Positions 15,773 to 22,810 of a DNA stretch of 47,164 nt are shown here, piece after piece (position 1 is the stretch's first letter; each line of letters starts with the position of its first letter). The position numbers and the translations under genes were made by a program. Source of the stretch: an uncultured Anaerolineae bacterium (GTDB lineage Bacteria; Chloroflexota; Anaerolineae; Anaerolineales; Villigracilaceae); NCBI GenBank assembly GCA_903910795.1, contig CAIWAX010000428.1, positions 1 through 47,164 of the forward strand. The letters run 5' to 3'. The notes beneath the pieces are model-generated. The model searched no databases. It was not told where the DNA came from and saw only the letters and a program-made list of their open reading frames with translations.

Positions 15773-16026
15773 GTTTTCAGGCCCGCTCCCTGGAGACTTA
15801 AGCAGGACGAAAGGGGCGGGCCCACAGGGTCACCCTGTGGATCACTCGAACTTACAAAACATTGGTTGACCATATCGACGAATTTTGCCCTAAAACGGGA
15901 GCCTACGCAAGGGGCAAAACAACCTGGGCAGATATATATAATGTCTAAAACTGTGAAACAATGCAATTATCGGCTATAATTTAATTATCTTATAATTATC
16001 CTATTTTAGTACAACCCGGGCAGGGC
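15773..16026. other. divergent control region between metallophosphoesterase and kinase
   Basis: Holds a 9-bp dyad CCACAGGGT-C-ACCCTGTGG (15822-15840), an 8-bp inverted repeat TTTTGCCC/GGGCAAAA (15883-15890 and 15912-15919), and three TATAAT hexamers toward the kinase (15937, 15975, 15991), none with a convincing -35. Confidence 0.55.
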
Positions 16027-17922
16027 ATGGAAACTCAGAATATCAACCAACCACCCGAATCTGGAAACCGCACGGCAGGTTCTGACCAGCTTCGCCCTGG
16101 AACCAACCTGGTCAATCGCTATTTGATTCAGGAAGTGATTGGCATTGGCGGGATGGGGTCGGTATATCGGGCGCGTGATTTGCATTTCCCGAATGTCGTC
16201 AAATTAGTCGCCATCAAGGAAATTATCAATCACGCGCCCGATCCTCTTGTGCGCAAAACGGTTGTCCAAAACTTCGAGCGAGAAGCCAACATCCTTGCAA
16301 CCTTGAGTCATCCATCCATTCCCCGCATATACGATTATTTCACCCTCGAGAATCGTTCCTACCTGGCACTTGAATTCATAAATGGTCGCGACCTGGAAGT
16401 TGTACTTAACCAGGCTCAAGGTTTTCTGTCCGAAGAACAGGTGGTTGGTTGGGCTATTCAACTCTGTGATGTACTCAGCTATCTGCACAATCACAAACCC
16501 GATCCCATTATATTTCGAGATATGAAGCCTTCCAATGTAATGGTCAACCAATACAACCACATCATCCTGGTTGATTTTGGAATCGCGAAGCCCTTCCAAA
16601 CCGGTCAGAAGGGTACCATGATCGGAACAGAGGGTTATTCGCCTCCTGAGCAATATCGCGGTGAAGCCAGTACTCAGGCTGATATCTATGCCCTCGGCGC
16701 CACTATCCATCACTTGCTTACCCGCCGGGATCCGCGTTTGGAGCCGCCATTTTCTTTTGGTGAGCGGCCCATCCGTAAAAGCAACGCCAATATCTCCATT
16801 GAAATTGAAACAGTTGTCAATACCGCTCTGCAATATGATGTGGAAAATCGCTTTAAGACCGCCGATGATTTTAAACAGGCCTTGATCGGTGCGGCGCGCA
16901 AAACTGGCATGCTTAATCGTATCAATTTCAGCCAGCCGGGCGGCACAGGTGCAGTCAACGTAAGTGGGATTAAGCCTGTCTGGGTTTTTCAGTGCGAAGA
17001 TGAAATTCGAGGAACCCCCCTCTACCTGGGTGGCGTGATTTACACAGGCTGCTATGATAATAACCTGTACGCGCTTAATGCGGCCAACGGCGAGTTCCAA
17101 TGGAAATATGCGACAGATGGCGGAGTTGTCAGCCGGCCTGCTGCTGCCGAAGATACCATCTATTTTGGATCTGAAGACAAAAGCCTGTACGCGGTAAGTG
17201 CGCGCACAGGCAAAATGATCTGGACCTTTCCAACCGAAGGACGCATCCGCTCATCAGGACGGATCGCCGATGGGCATATCTTTATCGGCTCAGATGACAG
17301 GAGCCTGTATGCTATCAAGCAGTCTACCGGACGCAAAGCCTGGAACTACGAAACAAGCGATGAAGTGCGCTCCACACCTTTTGTAGTTAATGATTTGATT
17401 TATTTTGGAACTGAAGGTGGCGAGCTTTTTTGTGTTGATTTCCACCAACAGGTCAAGTGGCGCTTCAAAGCCAAGCGTGGCATCACTTCTTCGCCCTGGG
17501 TACAGGACAACGTCGTTTATTTCAGTTCGATGGATTGTTTCATGTATGCGCTGGATGCAAAGACCGGGTGGCTGTTATGGCGCTTTCGCATGGGGAAAGC
17601 ATCCATCGTCTCACCATCCATCTTTAATAACACAGTCATTACCGGGTCATCAGATGGTAATATTTATGCCGTTGATACTCGCAACTCGAAAGAAATCTGG
17701 CACTATAAGACCGGAAACCAGGTCAATGGCTCTCCAATTGTTTATAAAGATGCCGTTTATGTAGGTTCAGTAGACAACAACCTGTATTGTATAGAAGTTC
17801 AAAGCGGCCGCCTGCGTTGGAAATTTGAAACCAAGGGCCCTATCACTGGCACACCTTGCATCTATGATGATATTTTATATTTTGGTTCCACCGATCACTT
17901 TATTTATGCATTGTTGACTTAG
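16027..17922 (+). CDS. Ser/Thr protein kinase with C-terminal PQQ-type beta-propeller
   Basis: 631 residues. The kinase domain (~32-300) has glycine loop GIGGMGSVYRARD, K64 in VAIKEI, catalytic FRDMKPSN (D165; His of HRD replaced by Phe), DFG at D183 and the P+1 region GTEGYSPPEQY. All residues needed for activity are present. From ~325 to the end come about seven repeats of the form YAL.A.TG...W with YFGS/YVGS strands, a PQQ-like propeller usually used for sensing or binding. No membrane helix separates the two, so unlike many bacterial propeller kinases this one looks cytosolic. The start ATG has GGGCAGGG just upstream. It leads the PP2C, J-VWA, FHA gene run. Confidence 0.93.
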   Translation: METQNINQPPESGNRTAGSDQLRPGTNLVNRYLIQEVIGIGGMGSVYRARDLHFPNVVKLVAIKEIINHAPDPLVRKTVVQNFEREANILATLSHPSIPRIYDYFTLENRSYLALEFINGRDLEVVLNQAQGFLSEEQVVGWAIQLCDVLSYLHNHKPDPIIFRDMKPSNVMVNQYNHIILVDFGIAKPFQTGQKGTMIGTEGYSPPEQYRGEASTQADIYALGATIHHLLTRRDPRLEPPFSFGERPIRKSNANISIEIETVVNTALQYDVENRFKTADDFKQALIGAARKTGMLNRINFSQPGGTGAVNVSGIKPVWVFQCEDEIRGTPLYLGGVIYTGCYDNNLYALNAANGEFQWKYATDGGVVSRPAAAEDTIYFGSEDKSLYAVSARTGKMIWTFPTEGRIRSSGRIADGHIFIGSDDRSLYAIKQSTGRKAWNYETSDEVRSTPFVVNDLIYFGTEGGELFCVDFHQQVKWRFKAKRGITSSPWVQDNVVYFSSMDCFMYALDAKTGWLLWRFRMGKASIVSPSIFNNTVITGSSDGNIYAVDTRNSKEIWHYKTGNQVNGSPIVYKDAVYVGSVDNNLYCIEVQSGRLRWKFETKGPITGTPCIYDDILYFGSTDHFIYALLT

Positions 17923-17942
17923 TCCAAATCCGTTCGATATAG

Positions 17943-17968
17943 ATATCCCGGCTTCAGTACGGGAAGGA
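17943..17968 (+). repeat. hairpin repeat carrying the PP2C ribosome binding site
   Basis: ATATCCCGGCTTCAGTACGG followed by GAAGGAG; the right arm of the hairpin (CGGGA) runs straight into the AAGGAG that serves the GTG start at 17976. Confidence 0.75.
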
Positions 17969-17975
17969 GCTCCCA

Positions 17976-18923
17976 GTGTTGGATTTCTTCAAAAAGTTTT
18001 CCAAAAAAAAAGAACCCCAAGAGCCAAAAGAAACCAAAATAACCGCGGAACCGATTAGCAGGCCGGTGGTAATTGATAATGCCAAAACTGCCCCACTTTC
18101 AGATCTTCAATTGGAATCCATCCGGGCACTTGCGCAGAATCATTTTGAGCCAATACAATATCTGGTAGCCAGCGGTCAATCGGTGGGGCAGCGGCGCGAG
18201 TTGAATGAGGATTGCCTCTTTACGCTCACAACTTGCGTTGCCGGGAACAGTGGCAACCCTCCTTTTGGGCTCTTCATCGTGGCGGATGGGATGGGTGGGC
18301 ATCAAAACGGTGAAGTCGCCAGTAATACGGCAGTACGCACAGTCAGCAACTATGTAATGAAAAAGATCCACAACGTGTTGTTTAGCTTTCCGATCGAACC
18401 GCTAGATGAATCACTCCAGGAAATCCTTCAAGGGGCGGTATTGGAAGCCCAGCACGCAGTTATGAAGGAAGCCCCCGGTTCAGGCACAACAGTAACAGCC
18501 GCGCTGGTTCTCGGCCAGCAGTTGACCATTGCGCATGTAGGTGACAGCCGCGGGTACCTGCTGTATAACGAACACCGGATGGAAGCTATTACGCGGGATC
18601 ATTCCCTGGTAAGACGTCTTGAAGAGCTTGGGCAGATTACTGCTGCTGAAGCCGCGGTACACCCTCAGCGCAATGTACTCTACCGGGCTGTTGGGCAGGG
18701 CGATAATATGGATGCTGATGTCATTACCACTCCATTCCCAATCGGTGGCTACCTTTTATTATGCAGCGACGGATTGTGGGGTCTTGTGTCAGATGACGAA
18801 ATGAGCCAAATGATATACAGCGCGCCAACTATTCAACGCGCGTGTCAGGATATGGTGGCCGCTGCAAATGCCGCTGGCGGCCCCGATAACATCAGCGTTA
18901 TTCTGGTTAAGCTTCTCGGGTAG
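17976..18923 (+). CDS. PP2C-family Ser/Thr protein phosphatase
   Basis: 315 residues. After a lysine- and proline-rich, probably disordered N-terminus (1-60), the PPM/PP2C domain shows the metal-binding blocks: RELNEDC (D79), VADGMGGHQNGEVAS (D104), AHVGDSRGYLL, CSDGLWGLVSDDEM and GGPDNISVILVKL. It removes phosphate from Ser/Thr and is the natural counterpart of the kinase 53 bases upstream. The start is GTG at 17976 with AAGGAG embedded in a hairpin repeat, so folding of that repeat could reduce translation. No membrane segment. Confidence 0.93.
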   Translation: MLDFFKKFSKKKEPQEPKETKITAEPISRPVVIDNAKTAPLSDLQLESIRALAQNHFEPIQYLVASGQSVGQRRELNEDCLFTLTTCVAGNSGNPPFGLFIVADGMGGHQNGEVASNTAVRTVSNYVMKKIHNVLFSFPIEPLDESLQEILQGAVLEAQHAVMKEAPGSGTTVTAALVLGQQLTIAHVGDSRGYLLYNEHRMEAITRDHSLVRRLEELGQITAAEAAVHPQRNVLYRAVGQGDNMDADVITTPFPIGGYLLLCSDGLWGLVSDDEMSQMIYSAPTIQRACQDMVAAANAAGGPDNISVILVKLLG

Positions 18924-18933
18924 CCCGGATAAA

Positions 18934-19047
18934 TATCCCGGTTCCAGTATGGGATAGATATCCCGGTTCCAGTATGGGATAAATATCCCGGTTCCAGTAT
19001 GGGATAGATATCCCGGTTCGATTGGCTTAGCAAATCGACTTGGAAAG
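18934..19047 (+). repeat. 25-bp tandem array of the hairpin repeat plus one nested copy
   Basis: Cores TCCCGGTTCCAGTATGGGA begin at 18936, 18961 and 18986, a 25-base period with near identity. A fourth unit at 19011 has the core opened by the inner inverted repeat CGATTGGCT/AGCAAATCG (19019-19037). It fills the gap between the PP2C and J-VWA genes and ends seven bases before the next ATG. Confidence 0.92.
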
Positions 19048-19053
19048 ATACTG

Positions 19054-20571
19054 ATGCAAAAATCGTCTCAAGACTATTATGCCTTGCTTGGCATTCCGCG
19101 TTCTTCGGCGCCGGATGAGATTCGACGTGCCTATCTCAAAGCAGCAAAAAAACTGCATCCAGATATAAACACGGCTCCTGGCGAAACCGAAATGTTCATG
19201 GATGTTCAACAAGCTTACCAGGTGCTGTCAGACCCGGTGCGGCGCTCCAGCTATGATGCCAATCTGCCACCCGAAAAGAATACCCCGGCCGCTATTGATA
19301 AACGTATTTTGGTCAGCCGGAAAAGTCTGTCACAAATAAAAGAACCTCAACTGGTTTACGTGCTGATTGATATGGAACCATCTCTGGAAATGCTGGATAC
19401 CATTGGCTATATTCCATTAAATCTTTGCCTGGTATTGGATAATTCGACATCCATGAAAGGTGAAAAGCTGGAAACGGCCAAGCAAACAGCCATAGAGTTG
19501 ATCCGCAGGCTTAAACCGCAGGATATTTTTTCTGTTGTAGCATTCAATGACCGCGCCGAAGTGATTATTCCATCCAGCCGCCAGTCAAACCCGGTAAAAA
19601 TGGAAAAAAATATCAGGCAAATCCAAACTTCTGGTGGCACCGAAATATTGCAAGGTTTACAGACCGGTCTGGATGAAATCAACCGCTATTTAAATACAAA
19701 ATCGGTCAACCACATTATTTTGATTACCGATGGCAAAACCTATGGAGATGAGCAGGCCTGCTACGATCTGGCAAAACAGGCTGCCAACCGTGGAATCAGC
19801 CTGACTGGACTGGGCATTGGCAGTGGCTGGAACGATATTTTTCTAGAAAAATTGGCCAACCTTACCGGTGGGACAAGCATGCTGGCCCCACAAGCCAAGG
19901 ACATTGAAAAACTTCTTATTGAAAAATTTTCAAATCTTTCCAAAACTTTTGCTGAAAATGTCATGCTTTACTATAAATTGGACAAAAGTGTCGAAATTAA
20001 TTATGCGTTTCGGCTCCATCCGATTACTGACCTTATCCAATCTGGCAGCCCGCTGCGCCTGGGCCCCATCCTCCAAAACTGGCCTTTCTCTGTTTTGATA
20101 GAGTTTAAGGTTTCCCCAAAGGAACTCGAATCTGAGTTTTTTACGCTCATGGAGGGTAAAATTGAAGTATCCGCCAGTAATATTCCATTACCGGTGCCCA
20201 GCATGCCGATTGAGATTGTCCTGGCTATAAAAGAAATGGACGATAGTTCAGGTACGCTTTACGAAGCAAATCGCGCGGGAGACTATGAGCCGCCGCCCTC
20301 GGCTATTATTCAGGCACTCTCAAAATTGACGCTGTATCGCTTGCAGGAGAAAGCCCGTAATGAAATGGCCCTCGGTAATTACGGCAAGGCTACAGAACAT
20401 CTTCAAAAGTTGGCTACCCGTTTGTTGGCACAAGGTGAACGCAGTTTGGCGAAAACTGTCATATTCGAAATCGAAAACATCGAAACAACAAAAACCTATT
20501 CTGAATATGGCGCAAAACAGATTAAGTATGGTACCAGGGCATTATTGCTACCCGAGGAGACAAAAAAATGA
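19054..20571 (+). CDS. J-domain / von Willebrand factor A fusion protein
   Basis: 505 residues. Residues 6-70 are a DnaJ J-domain with HPD at 35-37 (KKLHPDINT), able in principle to stimulate a DnaK ATPase. Residues ~120-300 are a VWA domain with an intact MIDAS: D129-x-S131-x-S133 in VLDNSTSMKGEK, SGGTEI for the threonine, and ILITDGKTYGDE for the aspartate. A beta-rich segment follows, then a helical C-terminus (KLTLYRLQEKARNEMALGNY). The combination suggests a protein that recruits Hsp70 to a metal-dependent adhesion partner. The ATG at 19054 lies just after the tandem repeat, with TTGGAAAG as a weak ribosome site. Its stop overlaps the FHA gene by four bases (ATGA). Confidence 0.88.
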   Translation: MQKSSQDYYALLGIPRSSAPDEIRRAYLKAAKKLHPDINTAPGETEMFMDVQQAYQVLSDPVRRSSYDANLPPEKNTPAAIDKRILVSRKSLSQIKEPQLVYVLIDMEPSLEMLDTIGYIPLNLCLVLDNSTSMKGEKLETAKQTAIELIRRLKPQDIFSVVAFNDRAEVIIPSSRQSNPVKMEKNIRQIQTSGGTEILQGLQTGLDEINRYLNTKSVNHIILITDGKTYGDEQACYDLAKQAANRGISLTGLGIGSGWNDIFLEKLANLTGGTSMLAPQAKDIEKLLIEKFSNLSKTFAENVMLYYKLDKSVEINYAFRLHPITDLIQSGSPLRLGPILQNWPFSVLIEFKVSPKELESEFFTLMEGKIEVSASNIPLPVPSMPIEIVLAIKEMDDSSGTLYEANRAGDYEPPPSAIIQALSKLTLYRLQEKARNEMALGNYGKATEHLQKLATRLLAQGERSLAKTVIFEIENIETTKTYSEYGAKQIKYGTRALLLPEETKK

Positions 20572-21065
20572 TCGTATGCCAAAACTGCAAATCACAACAA
20601 CCGGATGGCTCAATCTTTTGCAGCGAATGTGGTACGCAATTACCACTGATCAATTCGGCTCAAACTCAAAAGTTTTCACCAAACACTGATCAACTTCAAA
20701 TCTCAGGCCCGTACGCAAATCAAATTCCCAAGCAGACTGGCACCTGGATTTCCCTGCATTTGCTGGATAGCGGCAATATTCTGGCCTTCTCAGAACAGCT
20801 CGAGTTTACTCTTGGCCGTTTAAGTGATAACCAACCCATTGAACCAGATGTTGATCTGTCACCGTTCAAAGCTTTCGACAACGGTGTTTCGCGCTTACAT
20901 GCTGTCATCAAAAATATTGAGGGCTCCGCCATTCTGATCGATTTGGGATCATCCAACGGCACCTACGTCAACGGCATCCGGATTATGCCGAATGTTGAAC
21001 AACGCCTGCGGCATGGGGATATCGTTGCTCTTGGTAAGCTAAAAATGCAAGTTGTATTATCCTGA
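20568..21065 (+). CDS. zinc-ribbon FHA-domain protein
   Basis: 165 residues. An N-terminal zinc ribbon with C4, C7, C18, C21 (CQNCKS...FCSECG) is joined by a polar linker to a C-terminal FHA domain (~68-165) with FTLGRLS, the phosphothreonine-contact SRLHAVI, and SSNGTYVNG. FHA domains read phosphothreonine, so a phosphorylated kinase-cluster protein is the probable ligand. Expression is translationally coupled to the J-VWA gene through the ATGA overlap. No transmembrane part. The partner is not identifiable from sequence. Confidence 0.92.
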   Translation: MIVCQNCKSQQPDGSIFCSECGTQLPLINSAQTQKFSPNTDQLQISGPYANQIPKQTGTWISLHLLDSGNILAFSEQLEFTLGRLSDNQPIEPDVDLSPFKAFDNGVSRLHAVIKNIEGSAILIDLGSSNGTYVNGIRIMPNVEQRLRHGDIVALGKLKMQVVLS

Positions 21066-21078
21066 TAGGTGAATAAAG

Positions 21079-21318
21079 ATGCCCACCATTTTGATTCATA
21101 TTTCTAACGAGGATCCTGTTTTGGGAGAGGTAGATGCTTTGCCCACCCCTATAGACCAGATTATCAAAGTAAAGAACCCGCGTTTGCGTGATGGCAAGGA
21201 CCTGCGTTACTTGCAACCCAATGTCACCGAAATGATCCTGCCCATGCTGCGTATTACATTCATTGAAGTTTTGCCTGGTGATCAAGAAGACGAGATCATC
21301 GGCTTTGTAAGGGAGTAG
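21079..21318 (+). CDS. small conserved-looking protein of unknown function in the kinase cluster
   Basis: 79 residues, not recognised. Coding is supported by its fit between the FHA gene (13-base gap) and the OmpR-type regulator (3-base gap), an AGGTG ribosome site, and uniform codon style. The protein mixes short beta-like stretches (TILIHIS, RITFIEVLPG) with an acidic end EDEIIGFVRE. It ends without a diglycine, so it is not a MoaD/ubiquitin-type modifier. No cysteine, membrane helix or signal peptide. It could be a stabiliser or adaptor for its neighbours, but that is a guess. Confidence 0.7.
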   Translation: MPTILIHISNEDPVLGEVDALPTPIDQIIKVKNPRLRDGKDLRYLQPNVTEMILPMLRITFIEVLPGDQEDEIIGFVRE

Positions 21319-21321
21319 AAA

Positions 21322-22050
21322 ATGCCAGAAGAACTTGACCGCCGCCGTATCCTGGTTGTTGATGACGAAGAGCGCATGGTGCGCTTCATTCGTTTGAACC
21401 TGGAACATGACGGATTCCAGGTTAGCGAGGCTTTTAATGGAAAACAGGCTGTTCAACGTCTGCGCGATGTAAACCCGGATTTGATCTTGCTGGATGTTAT
21501 GATGCCAGACCTGGACGGCTTTGAAGTGCTTGAAATGGTGCGTGAGATCAGCAATGTGCCGGTCATCATGTTGACCGCCAAAGGCGAAGAAGATGATCGC
21601 GTGCGCGGCCTTGAAAAAGGCGCCGATGACTATGTCACCAAACCGTTCAGCCCCCGAGAACTGGTCAGCAGAGTACGCGCAGTACTTCGACGCACTGAGG
21701 GCGCCACAGGCTCCATGCATGGTCTCATCGAAATAGATGAACGCCTGAAAATTGATTTCGACCGCCGGGAAGTCTGGCTGGAAGGAAAAATCGTCAAACT
21801 GCGACCTACCGAATACCGGTTGCTCTTCCATTTGGTGCAAAATGCCGGTTGGGTGGTATCGCATGATCAGCTCCTGGCCAAGGTCTGGGGTTATGAATAT
21901 CGTGATGAGCCGCATTATGTGCGGCTTTATATTAACTACTTGCGCCAAAAACTGGAAAAAGATGCCACTAACCCCAAATATATTCTCACTGAACGTGGTG
22001 TAGGTTATCGTTTTGTAGATTTCAGACGAACGGGCAAAGAAAAAGAATAA
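21322..22050 (+). CDS. OmpR/PhoB-type DNA-binding response regulator
   Basis: 242 residues. The receiver (residues 8-125) has D14-D15, phospho-acceptor D58 in [10 protein letters not shown] in [12 protein letters not shown] and K in [20 protein letters not shown]. The winged helix (~140-238) has [20 protein letters not shown] and the recognition-helix/wing segment [13 protein letters not shown]...RGVGYRF. It should activate or repress promoters as a dimer when phosphorylated. It follows the 79-residue gene by 3 bases, hence the same transcript. No cognate histidine kinase in the window. Confidence 0.94.
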
Positions 22051-22075
22051 CTGGTATACTCTTATTCTTTCCCTG

Positions 22076-22137
22076 GTAATCCGAGTTCGATTTGCTAAGC
22101 CCACATGTTCGTGGTGGGAAGCAAATCGCATGGGAGA
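22076..22137 (+). repeat. large nested hairpin repeat before the NarL-type regulator
   Basis: Inner arms CGATTTGCT (22088-22096) and AGCAAATCG (22120-22128) enclose a further CCCAC/GTGGG stem; the outer part is AATCCGAGTT ... ATGGGAGAGG. The right end supplies the purine-rich ribosome site for the gene at 22151. Confidence 0.8.
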
Positions 22138-22150
22138 GGACCCCATATTT

Positions 22151-22810
22151 ATGTCAAAGCAGCGTATTTTACTGGTAGATGACCACGAAGTTGTGCGCCT
22201 GGGCTTGAAAGCTCTCCTGGATCGTCACCCCAATTTCGAAGTAGTTGGGGAAGCCGGTTCTGCGCGTGAAGCCATCGATAAAGTGGCTGAACTTCAACCC
22301 GGCGTTGTGGTGATGGATATCCGTCTGCCAGGCACATCCGGAATTGAAGCCTGTGAGGAAATCGTCCAGCGCTTCCCGGAAACCCGCGTTCTGATGCTGA
22401 CTTCATACGCTGAAGATGAAATGCTCTTTTCTGCCATCCGTGCCGGGGCTTCTGGATATATTCTCAAACAAATTGGTGGCGAAGAACTGGTGCGCGCGCT
22501 TGAAGCCGTGGGGCGTGGCGAGGCATTACTCGACCCGGCCGTTACCCAGCGCGTTTTTCAGGAAGTGCGCAAAGCTGTCAAGGAAGAGGAGGCATCTGCT
22601 TTTGCCCATCTCAGCCAGCAAGAAAAACACGTTCTGCTGCTTGTTTCTGAAGGAAAGACCAACCGTGAAATAGCCAAAGCCCTGTTTTTGGGAGAAGGCA
22701 CGGTCCGCAATTATGTTAGCAGCATCCTCTCCAAATTGGGGGTGAACAACCGGGCCGAAGCCGCTGCTTATGCCGTGGAACACAACTTGAAAGAGTACAT
22801 CCAGGGTTAA
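22151..22810 (+). CDS. NarL/FixJ (LuxR)-type response regulator
   Basis: 219 residues. The receiver has D10-D11, D56 in [11 protein letters not shown] in [10 protein letters not shown] and K in [11 protein letters not shown]. The C-terminal LuxR helix-turn-helix (~150-215) reads [26 protein letters not shown], then [20 protein letters not shown]. The start is placed at ATG 22151, where GGGAGAGGA is ~10 bases upstream; an ATG at 22130 inside the hairpin repeat would add seven residues and is less likely. A terminator follows at once, closing the kinase cluster. The upstream gap of 100 bases may hold its own promoter. Confidence 0.93.

Follow-up and report, generated by a model that had tools for sequence, protein, structure and literature searches.

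Why should a Ser/Thr kinase, a PP2C phosphatase, a protein combining a J domain with a VWA domain, an FHA protein, a 79-residue protein and two response regulators (RRs) be encoded side by side in an uncultured Anaerolineae bacterium? The question is raised by positions 16027-22810 of contig CAIWAX010000428.1 (assembly GCA_903910795.1), whose entire stretch of 47,164 nucleotides is referred to here as the window. The draft genome (496 contigs, 92% complete) has named relatives mainly among the Anaerolineae (Chloroflexota). Our analyses indicate that this operon is probably an ArnAB-type phospho-threonine switch that comes with a kinase and a phosphatase of its own. The first-pass annotation, made from the sequence alone, had proposed a seven-gene signaling module; all seven plus-strand open reading frames (ORFs) are present where it had placed them, and Pfam agrees with its domain calls (kinase-propeller, PP2C, J/VWA, FHA and two regulators), the score of the zinc ribbon of the FHA protein falling slightly below the cut-off. 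The genes, together with two parts of the J-VWA protein, are as follows.

16027..17922, plus strand: kinase-propeller, an ORF with Pfam Pkinase and a PQQ/BamB propeller
17976..18923, plus strand: PP2C phosphatase, an ORF with a GTG start; Pfam PP2C
19054..20571, plus strand: J-VWA, a DnaJ domain, then an ArnB-like VWA within a beta-sandwich, and a C-terminal helix bundle
19072..19257, plus strand: J domain with the HPD motif (residues 7-68; Pfam DnaJ, E 4.4e-21)
20515..20544, plus strand: J-VWA C-terminal motif K488-x-I-x-Y-x-T494-R-x-L497, a candidate phospho-threonine/FHA docking site
20568..21065, plus strand: ArnA-like zinc-ribbon FHA protein (zinc ribbon C4, C7, C18, C21, and an FHA domain)
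21079..21318, plus strand: ORF79 (79 residues), a predicted Sm/LSm-like barrel and core component
21322..22050, plus strand: RR1, an OmpR-family response regulator (Pfam)
22130..22810, plus strand: RR2, a NarL/LuxR-family response regulator (Pfam) and variable neighbor

Forty neighborhoods were fetched around matches to ORF79 or J-VWA, and 38 of them contained the kinase, PP2C, J-VWA, FHA, ORF79 and RR1 genes in the same order and on the same strand. The exceptions are L061, a contig that begins within J-VWA so that four genes are visible, and L093, whose kinase gene is clipped by the contig start and which shows five. Co-occurrence in relatives had been named beforehand as the test of the proposed module, and these six genes passed it; the conservation of the neighborhood also supports the view that the genes for the writer, the eraser and the reader of phosphothreonine constitute one conserved device. 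The seventh gene did not hold its place: RR2 occurs in 12 of the 40 neighborhoods and in 29 of the 80 named loci described below, and lies outside the core. The four-base overlap between J-VWA and FHA recurs in 27/40 neighborhoods (with start codons chosen by script), and the motifs for activity or binding, including the phosphoacceptor region of RR1, vary hardly at all between the window and 39-40 aligned relatives.

Named genomes were also scanned, and of the 204 confirmed matches the best 80 were retained. These contain ORF79 and RR1 (80 each), FHA (77), the C-terminal part of the VWA protein (75), PP2C (71) and the propeller (70); in the ten loci without the propeller, the available sequence starts less than 2.6 kb before ORF79. 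At a threshold of E 1e-30, J-VWA was detected in 90 of 199 genomes of the class, and some of the matches do not cover the J region. The cultured carriers include Bellilinea caldifistulae (L138), Thermanaerothrix daxensis (L141) and Anaerolinea thermolimosa (L167), among others. Conservation of the module is far beyond chance. One 3.6-kb contig labeled Bacteroidetes (L149) carries part of the module with Anaerolineae-like genes, and is probably misbinned Anaerolineae DNA.

The 40 neighborhoods and the 80 named loci overlap, and after deduplication (L055 being excluded from the clustering) the 152 ORF79 loci, other classes included, were reduced to 136. In other classes of the phylum (L094-L100, L109 and L110) the order is kinase-PP2C-VWA-FHA-ORF79, without the J domain and RR1; a single genome outside the class (L113) does have the J domain. 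The kinase and ORF79 stand side by side alone in L101-L103 and L122, and also in L112, whose contig starts in the propeller. In three Anaerolineae loci (L160, L168 and L213) J-VWA and FHA are both missing and PP2C adjoins ORF79; a search of these genomes gave only partial matches to the J region or VWA, and FHA matches that fall short of the zinc ribbon. Among 117 non-redundant loci with the kinase and ORF79, VWA and FHA were both present in 110, both absent in seven and never found singly, and the two therefore behave as a pair within the module. Inertia, by which unrelated functions would simply have stayed in one operon, has a slim chance of being the explanation: partial gene loss does occur, but the losses are ordered, with VWA and FHA lost jointly in 7/7 cases, and the gene order is maintained between classes of the phylum.

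The VWA-FHA pair is related to the archaeal pair ArnB-ArnA. A profile of the FHA protein matched the PDB entries 8s05_C (1.1e-15) and 5a8i (2.9e-15), each match spanning both the zinc ribbon and the FHA domain, and ArnA (E 1.1e-15) ranks first among the 60 PDB sequences listed. Both proteins have an N-terminal zinc ribbon followed by an FHA domain, with a common 3-11-3 cysteine spacing, and the zinc cysteines and the FHA residues (GR/SRxH/NG) are shared almost without exception by the window and the aligned relatives. ArnB is the second PDB match of the J-VWA structure model, and J-VWA shows the ArnB architecture of a VWA domain inserted in a beta-sandwich and followed by a C-terminal helix bundle; Pfam ArnB_C did not appear in the 25 families listed out of 40. 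We presume that arnA and arnB are adjacent in Sulfolobus, which the literature passages searched did not confirm. In Sulfolobus, as in the arrangement proposed here, a kinase and a phosphatase act on the pair. The window system differs from the Sulfolobus Arn network (ArnC/ArnD, PP2A) in that it is bacterial and encodes kinase and phosphatase in its own operon; its phosphatase is a PP2C instead of PP2A (which was not searched for elsewhere in the window genome), its kinase has a propeller in place of the OB/TPR part of ArnC, and the J domain, the Sm/LSm-like protein and the response regulator are additions.

Homology to ArnB-ArnA might suggest that the operon regulates an archaellum or motility, as ArnAB does in Sulfolobus, and archaellins do occur in 14 of 199 genomes of the class (L214-L217 among the loci). 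However, the archaellin family PF01917 is absent from the window genome, none was found in the nine same-family genomes with J-VWA, and only three of the 14 archaellin genomes (G006, G137 and G181) belong to the set of 90 in which J-VWA was detected. Archaellum control was rejected for the window genome, and as a general explanation it is very improbable. The first-pass annotation had instead likened the cluster to the PpkA-PppA-Fha switch of type VI secretion, in which a phosphothreonine writer, eraser and reader (kinase, PP2C and FHA) are likewise encoded together, and the FHA protein does give a weak match to a type VI family. That match (30.9 bits) lies far below the 120.25-bit TagH cut-off, though; the window kinase has a propeller and no VWA, which is on a different protein; and the sheath family VipB, the sole type VI family searched (with an E. 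coli control that gave the expected match), was found in 0/21 genomes, the window genome included. A type VI switch is thus exceedingly improbable, and the analogy is better replaced by that with an ArnAB-type switch.

Where might such a switch be phosphorylated? Only four threonine columns of J-VWA are at least 90% conserved, three in the VWA domain, whose metal site is nearly invariant among the window and aligned relatives, and the fourth at T494; T494 and R495 are present in 41/41 sequences. The fetched loci, counting the paralogous cassettes, contain 142 ORFs that match the VWA C-terminal profile, and every one of them terminates in T-R-x-L, with F as the last residue in one case; a strict pattern recognized 126, and inspection added the remaining 16. 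The same holds for 125/125 distinct tails when F is admitted at the last position. A hydrophobic residue at +3 from the phosphothreonine suits many FHA domains. We regard T494 of T-R-x-L as the best candidate phosphosite in the C-terminal bundle, and it may correspond to T375 of ArnB, a comparison based only on where the two aligned ranges end (residue 500 against 381). The ArnB literature reports T375 as one of three sites almost fully phosphorylated within 5 minutes. The paralogous cassettes (L120, L121, L123, L129, L130 and L131) combine a VWA protein, likewise with a T-R-x-L tail, and a multi-zinc-ribbon FHA protein; most have kinases and PP2C, and they lack the propeller kinase and ORF79.

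Both enzymes have intact active-site motifs in nearly all members. The kinase domain (approx. residues 30-290) retains K64, D165, DFG and the activation-loop threonines T197/T201 across relatives, and is followed by an eight-repeat PQQ/BamB-type propeller (approx. 310-631). The protein has no membrane-type hydrophobic stretch and, given also the eight propeller repeats, is most likely cytoplasmic. AfsK of Streptomyces similarly carries a C-terminal PQQ propeller on a kinase and is the best NCBIfam match, but the score of the window protein (210.5 bits) is far under the AfsK cut-off of 1300 bits and the operon has no AfsR-like partner gene. The phosphatase is Stp1/IreP-like (219.1 bits, slightly below the 230-bit cut-off), with aspartates D79, D104, D265 and D304 in 40/40 aligned rows. 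In L182 (2279-5065), kinase, propeller and PP2C lie in one 929-residue frame, which could be a genuine fusion of kinase and phosphatase or could result from faulty assembly.

A kinase, a PP2C phosphatase and a vWA protein in one cluster also recall TerY-P, described in passages of PMC11090510 as vWA, PP2C and a kinase-zinc ribbon, and the module might accordingly be a triad serving anti-phage defense or metal stress. The three component types do co-occur, PADLOC defense kinases match the kinase domain, and one PADLOC model matches the phosphatase. On the other hand, the C terminus of the window kinase is a propeller and not a zinc ribbon, the module adds an FHA reader, J-VWA and ORF79 (none with a PADLOC match at 1e-5; those of the two regulators are weak, at 9.3e-6 and 4.3e-8), and the operon occurs across much of the class, each genome among the matches listed having a single ORF79, in contrast to a patchy defense cassette or add-on. 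We therefore consider a TerY-P-like function quite unlikely.

ORF79, which the first-pass annotation had called an orphan, was found in 38/41 relatives searched, and in 181/396 genomes of the class and 131/400 of the phylum. The window protein has no Pfam or NCBIfam match, and 34 members gave no convincing Pfam match (the Hfq family PF17209 not being among the families listed up to E 0.5) and no PDB sequence match; their alignment contains two conserved segments, the basic NPRRRDGK and P-x-x-R-I-x-F-I-E. The structure model is a five-strand barrel (pLDDT 88.7), and 49 of the 50 structural matches listed, with moderate scores, are to Sm, LSm or Gemin proteins, or to complexes that contain one of these. 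ORF79 is thus predicted to be an Sm/LSm-like barrel of the kind found in these proteins and Hfq. In L104, L105 and L106, from one family of the phylum, a divergent ORF79-like gene lies (by eye) directly upstream of a topoisomerase I-like gene.

This prediction opens a different reading, in which ORF79 is an RNA-binding LSm/Hfq-like post-transcriptional regulator and the kinase, phosphatase, VWA and FHA proteins chiefly control it. Besides the predicted fold and the basic segment, the smallest unit of the operon, propeller kinase plus ORF79, is compatible with it, as is the rarity of Hfq, which was found in 3/121 genomes of the phylum, in 0/102 of good quality, and not in the window genome. An RNA role of ORF79 is possible, and we hold the reading that makes it the center of the system to be conceivable, if doubtful.

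In most members of the class, RR1 is linked to the module. The first labeled same-strand gene within 1.5 kb in 109 non-redundant RR1 loci is Hsp20 in 28, RR2 (as in the window) in 24, a small GTPase in nine and DnaK in two; none of these was found in 46. In 33/109 loci an Hsp20 or DnaK gene is found no more than 2.5 kb away, and the five Hsp20 and two DnaK proteins that were checked against Pfam were all confirmed; each genome has few Hsp20 genes. These neighbors keep alive the idea of Hsp70 recruitment, which the first-pass annotation had put forward. The part of that claim that stands is the J domain itself, with HPD in 40/40 aligned J-VWA rows. On a quick, paralogue-rooted tree of the VWA part, built from all 24 J-less rows, of which six are paralogues, and from 48 of the 96 rows with J (rows below 350 residues being left out and L113 absent), J presence changes at least five times, three of the changes being forced by starred branches and one (L061) being an artefact of a contig that starts inside the gene. 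The simplest account is that the class Anaerolineae gained the J domain at its base, or close to it, and that later losses followed. With the J domain apparently a later acquisition that has been lost several times, the ancestral purpose is unlikely to have been Hsp70 recruitment. In five proteins tested (L080, L081, L083, L084 and L091) the best Pfam family of the small GTPase was PF03029, to which the archaeal GPN GTPase belongs. The latter was found with ArnAB by co-purification, according to passages of PMC12852372. We make no claim on a link, because the PF03029 matches are partial and Ras/Arf families match too.

The preferred reading of the operon as an ArnAB-type switch is based on its conservation, the intact motifs, the predicted folds, the relation of VWA-FHA to ArnB-ArnA and the joint retention of this pair; the steps of phosphorylation, binding and output we infer to be as follows. 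The cytoplasmic propeller of the kinase would sense a ligand or partner, and the kinase would phosphorylate one or more threonines (T494 being the best candidate) within the helix bundle at the C terminus of the ArnB-like VWA scaffold. This may loosen the bundle and allow the FHA domain of the ArnA-like protein to clamp on, so that a loosely associated pair becomes tightly bound; PP2C would reset it. In Anaerolineae, the J domain of the scaffold may bring DnaK (Hsp70) to whatever the VWA-FHA pair holds, RR1 would supply a transcriptional branch, and the predicted ORF79 barrel would be a regular partner, perhaps contacting the kinase or RNA. We consider rather unlikely a more specific version, in which the ArnB/Sec23-like scaffold with its J domain brings Hsp70 to cargo in only one phosphorylation state, set by the propeller kinase and PP2C, and a new LSm-family protein, replacing the mostly missing Hfq, ties the switch to RNA.

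Several observations weigh against the ArnAB-type reading. The C-terminal bundle profile gave only chance-level PDB rows, with ArnB not listed up to E 10. Passages of PMC12852372 describe the ArnB-like architecture as widespread and mostly not linked to multiple phosphorylation, so that a common fold is no proof of common switching, and ArnB is multiply phosphorylated with no single site essential. The T-R-x-L count is biased, since the collecting profile includes the motif and strays could be missed, and T494 lies in a confidently predicted helix (484-496) and may have a structural role; the helix alone is no objection, because ArnB phosphosites are also in helices. Because seven non-redundant loci retain the kinase and ORF79 but have no VWA/FHA, other targets of the kinase must exist, and ORF79 itself occurs without the propeller kinase in the fetched stretches of L104-L108 and L111, which weakened the idea of ORF79 as a strict kinase partner. 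RR1 is absent from the 2.6 kb left after ORF79 in L093, and the J domain is missing from 17/110 non-redundant loci bearing VWA. DnaK is rarely the neighbor (two loci, as above), and Hsp20 adjacency is inherited, so that through shared descent these loci are not independent counts. Finally, we found no report of an experiment on this module in the literature.

The non-coding parts of the locus contain two further features.

TATAAT -10 at 15975..15980 and -35-like hexamer from 15953, plus strand: likely operon promoter (consensus scan)
18927..19019, no strand assigned: tandem repeat of 25 bp, 3.7 copies, in the PP2C/J-VWA gap

The promoter candidate scores 10/12 in the scan, the number of sites in the region not being above that in shuffles, and a GGCTATAATTT-like block can be aligned in the window and five same-genus loci. 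The region between the phosphoesterase and kinase genes (15773-16026) is a divergent promoter region conserved within the family. A conserved upstream element was considered as an RR1 site and dropped, because its fixed spacing and position fit (by eye) the divergent phosphoesterase promoter. The intergenic distances across the seven ORFs are, in order, 53, 130, -4, 13, 3 and 79 bp; the "tight run" of the first-pass annotation is therefore accurate for all gaps but one, none of the others exceeding 79 bp. The 130-bp PP2C/J-VWA gap is mostly the tandem repeat, which has widened it. The repeat, with a near-palindromic core (GGGATA-ATATCCC), was found at no second place in the window genome, and is probably incidental.

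What the module would mean for the Chloroflexota can be stated at several levels. The ArnA-ArnB switch, known from Sulfolobales, would be extended to a kinase/phosphatase operon in a large bacterial phylum, with an assignable partner for each step: one invariant threonine, the FHA domain, the kinase and the phosphatase. An unnamed protein, predicted to be Sm/LSm-like, is exposed across a phylum mostly without Hfq. Phosphorylation control of an Hsp70 partner becomes directly testable in bacteria, and, since the module is present in cultured species, such tests may be made independently of metagenome assemblies.

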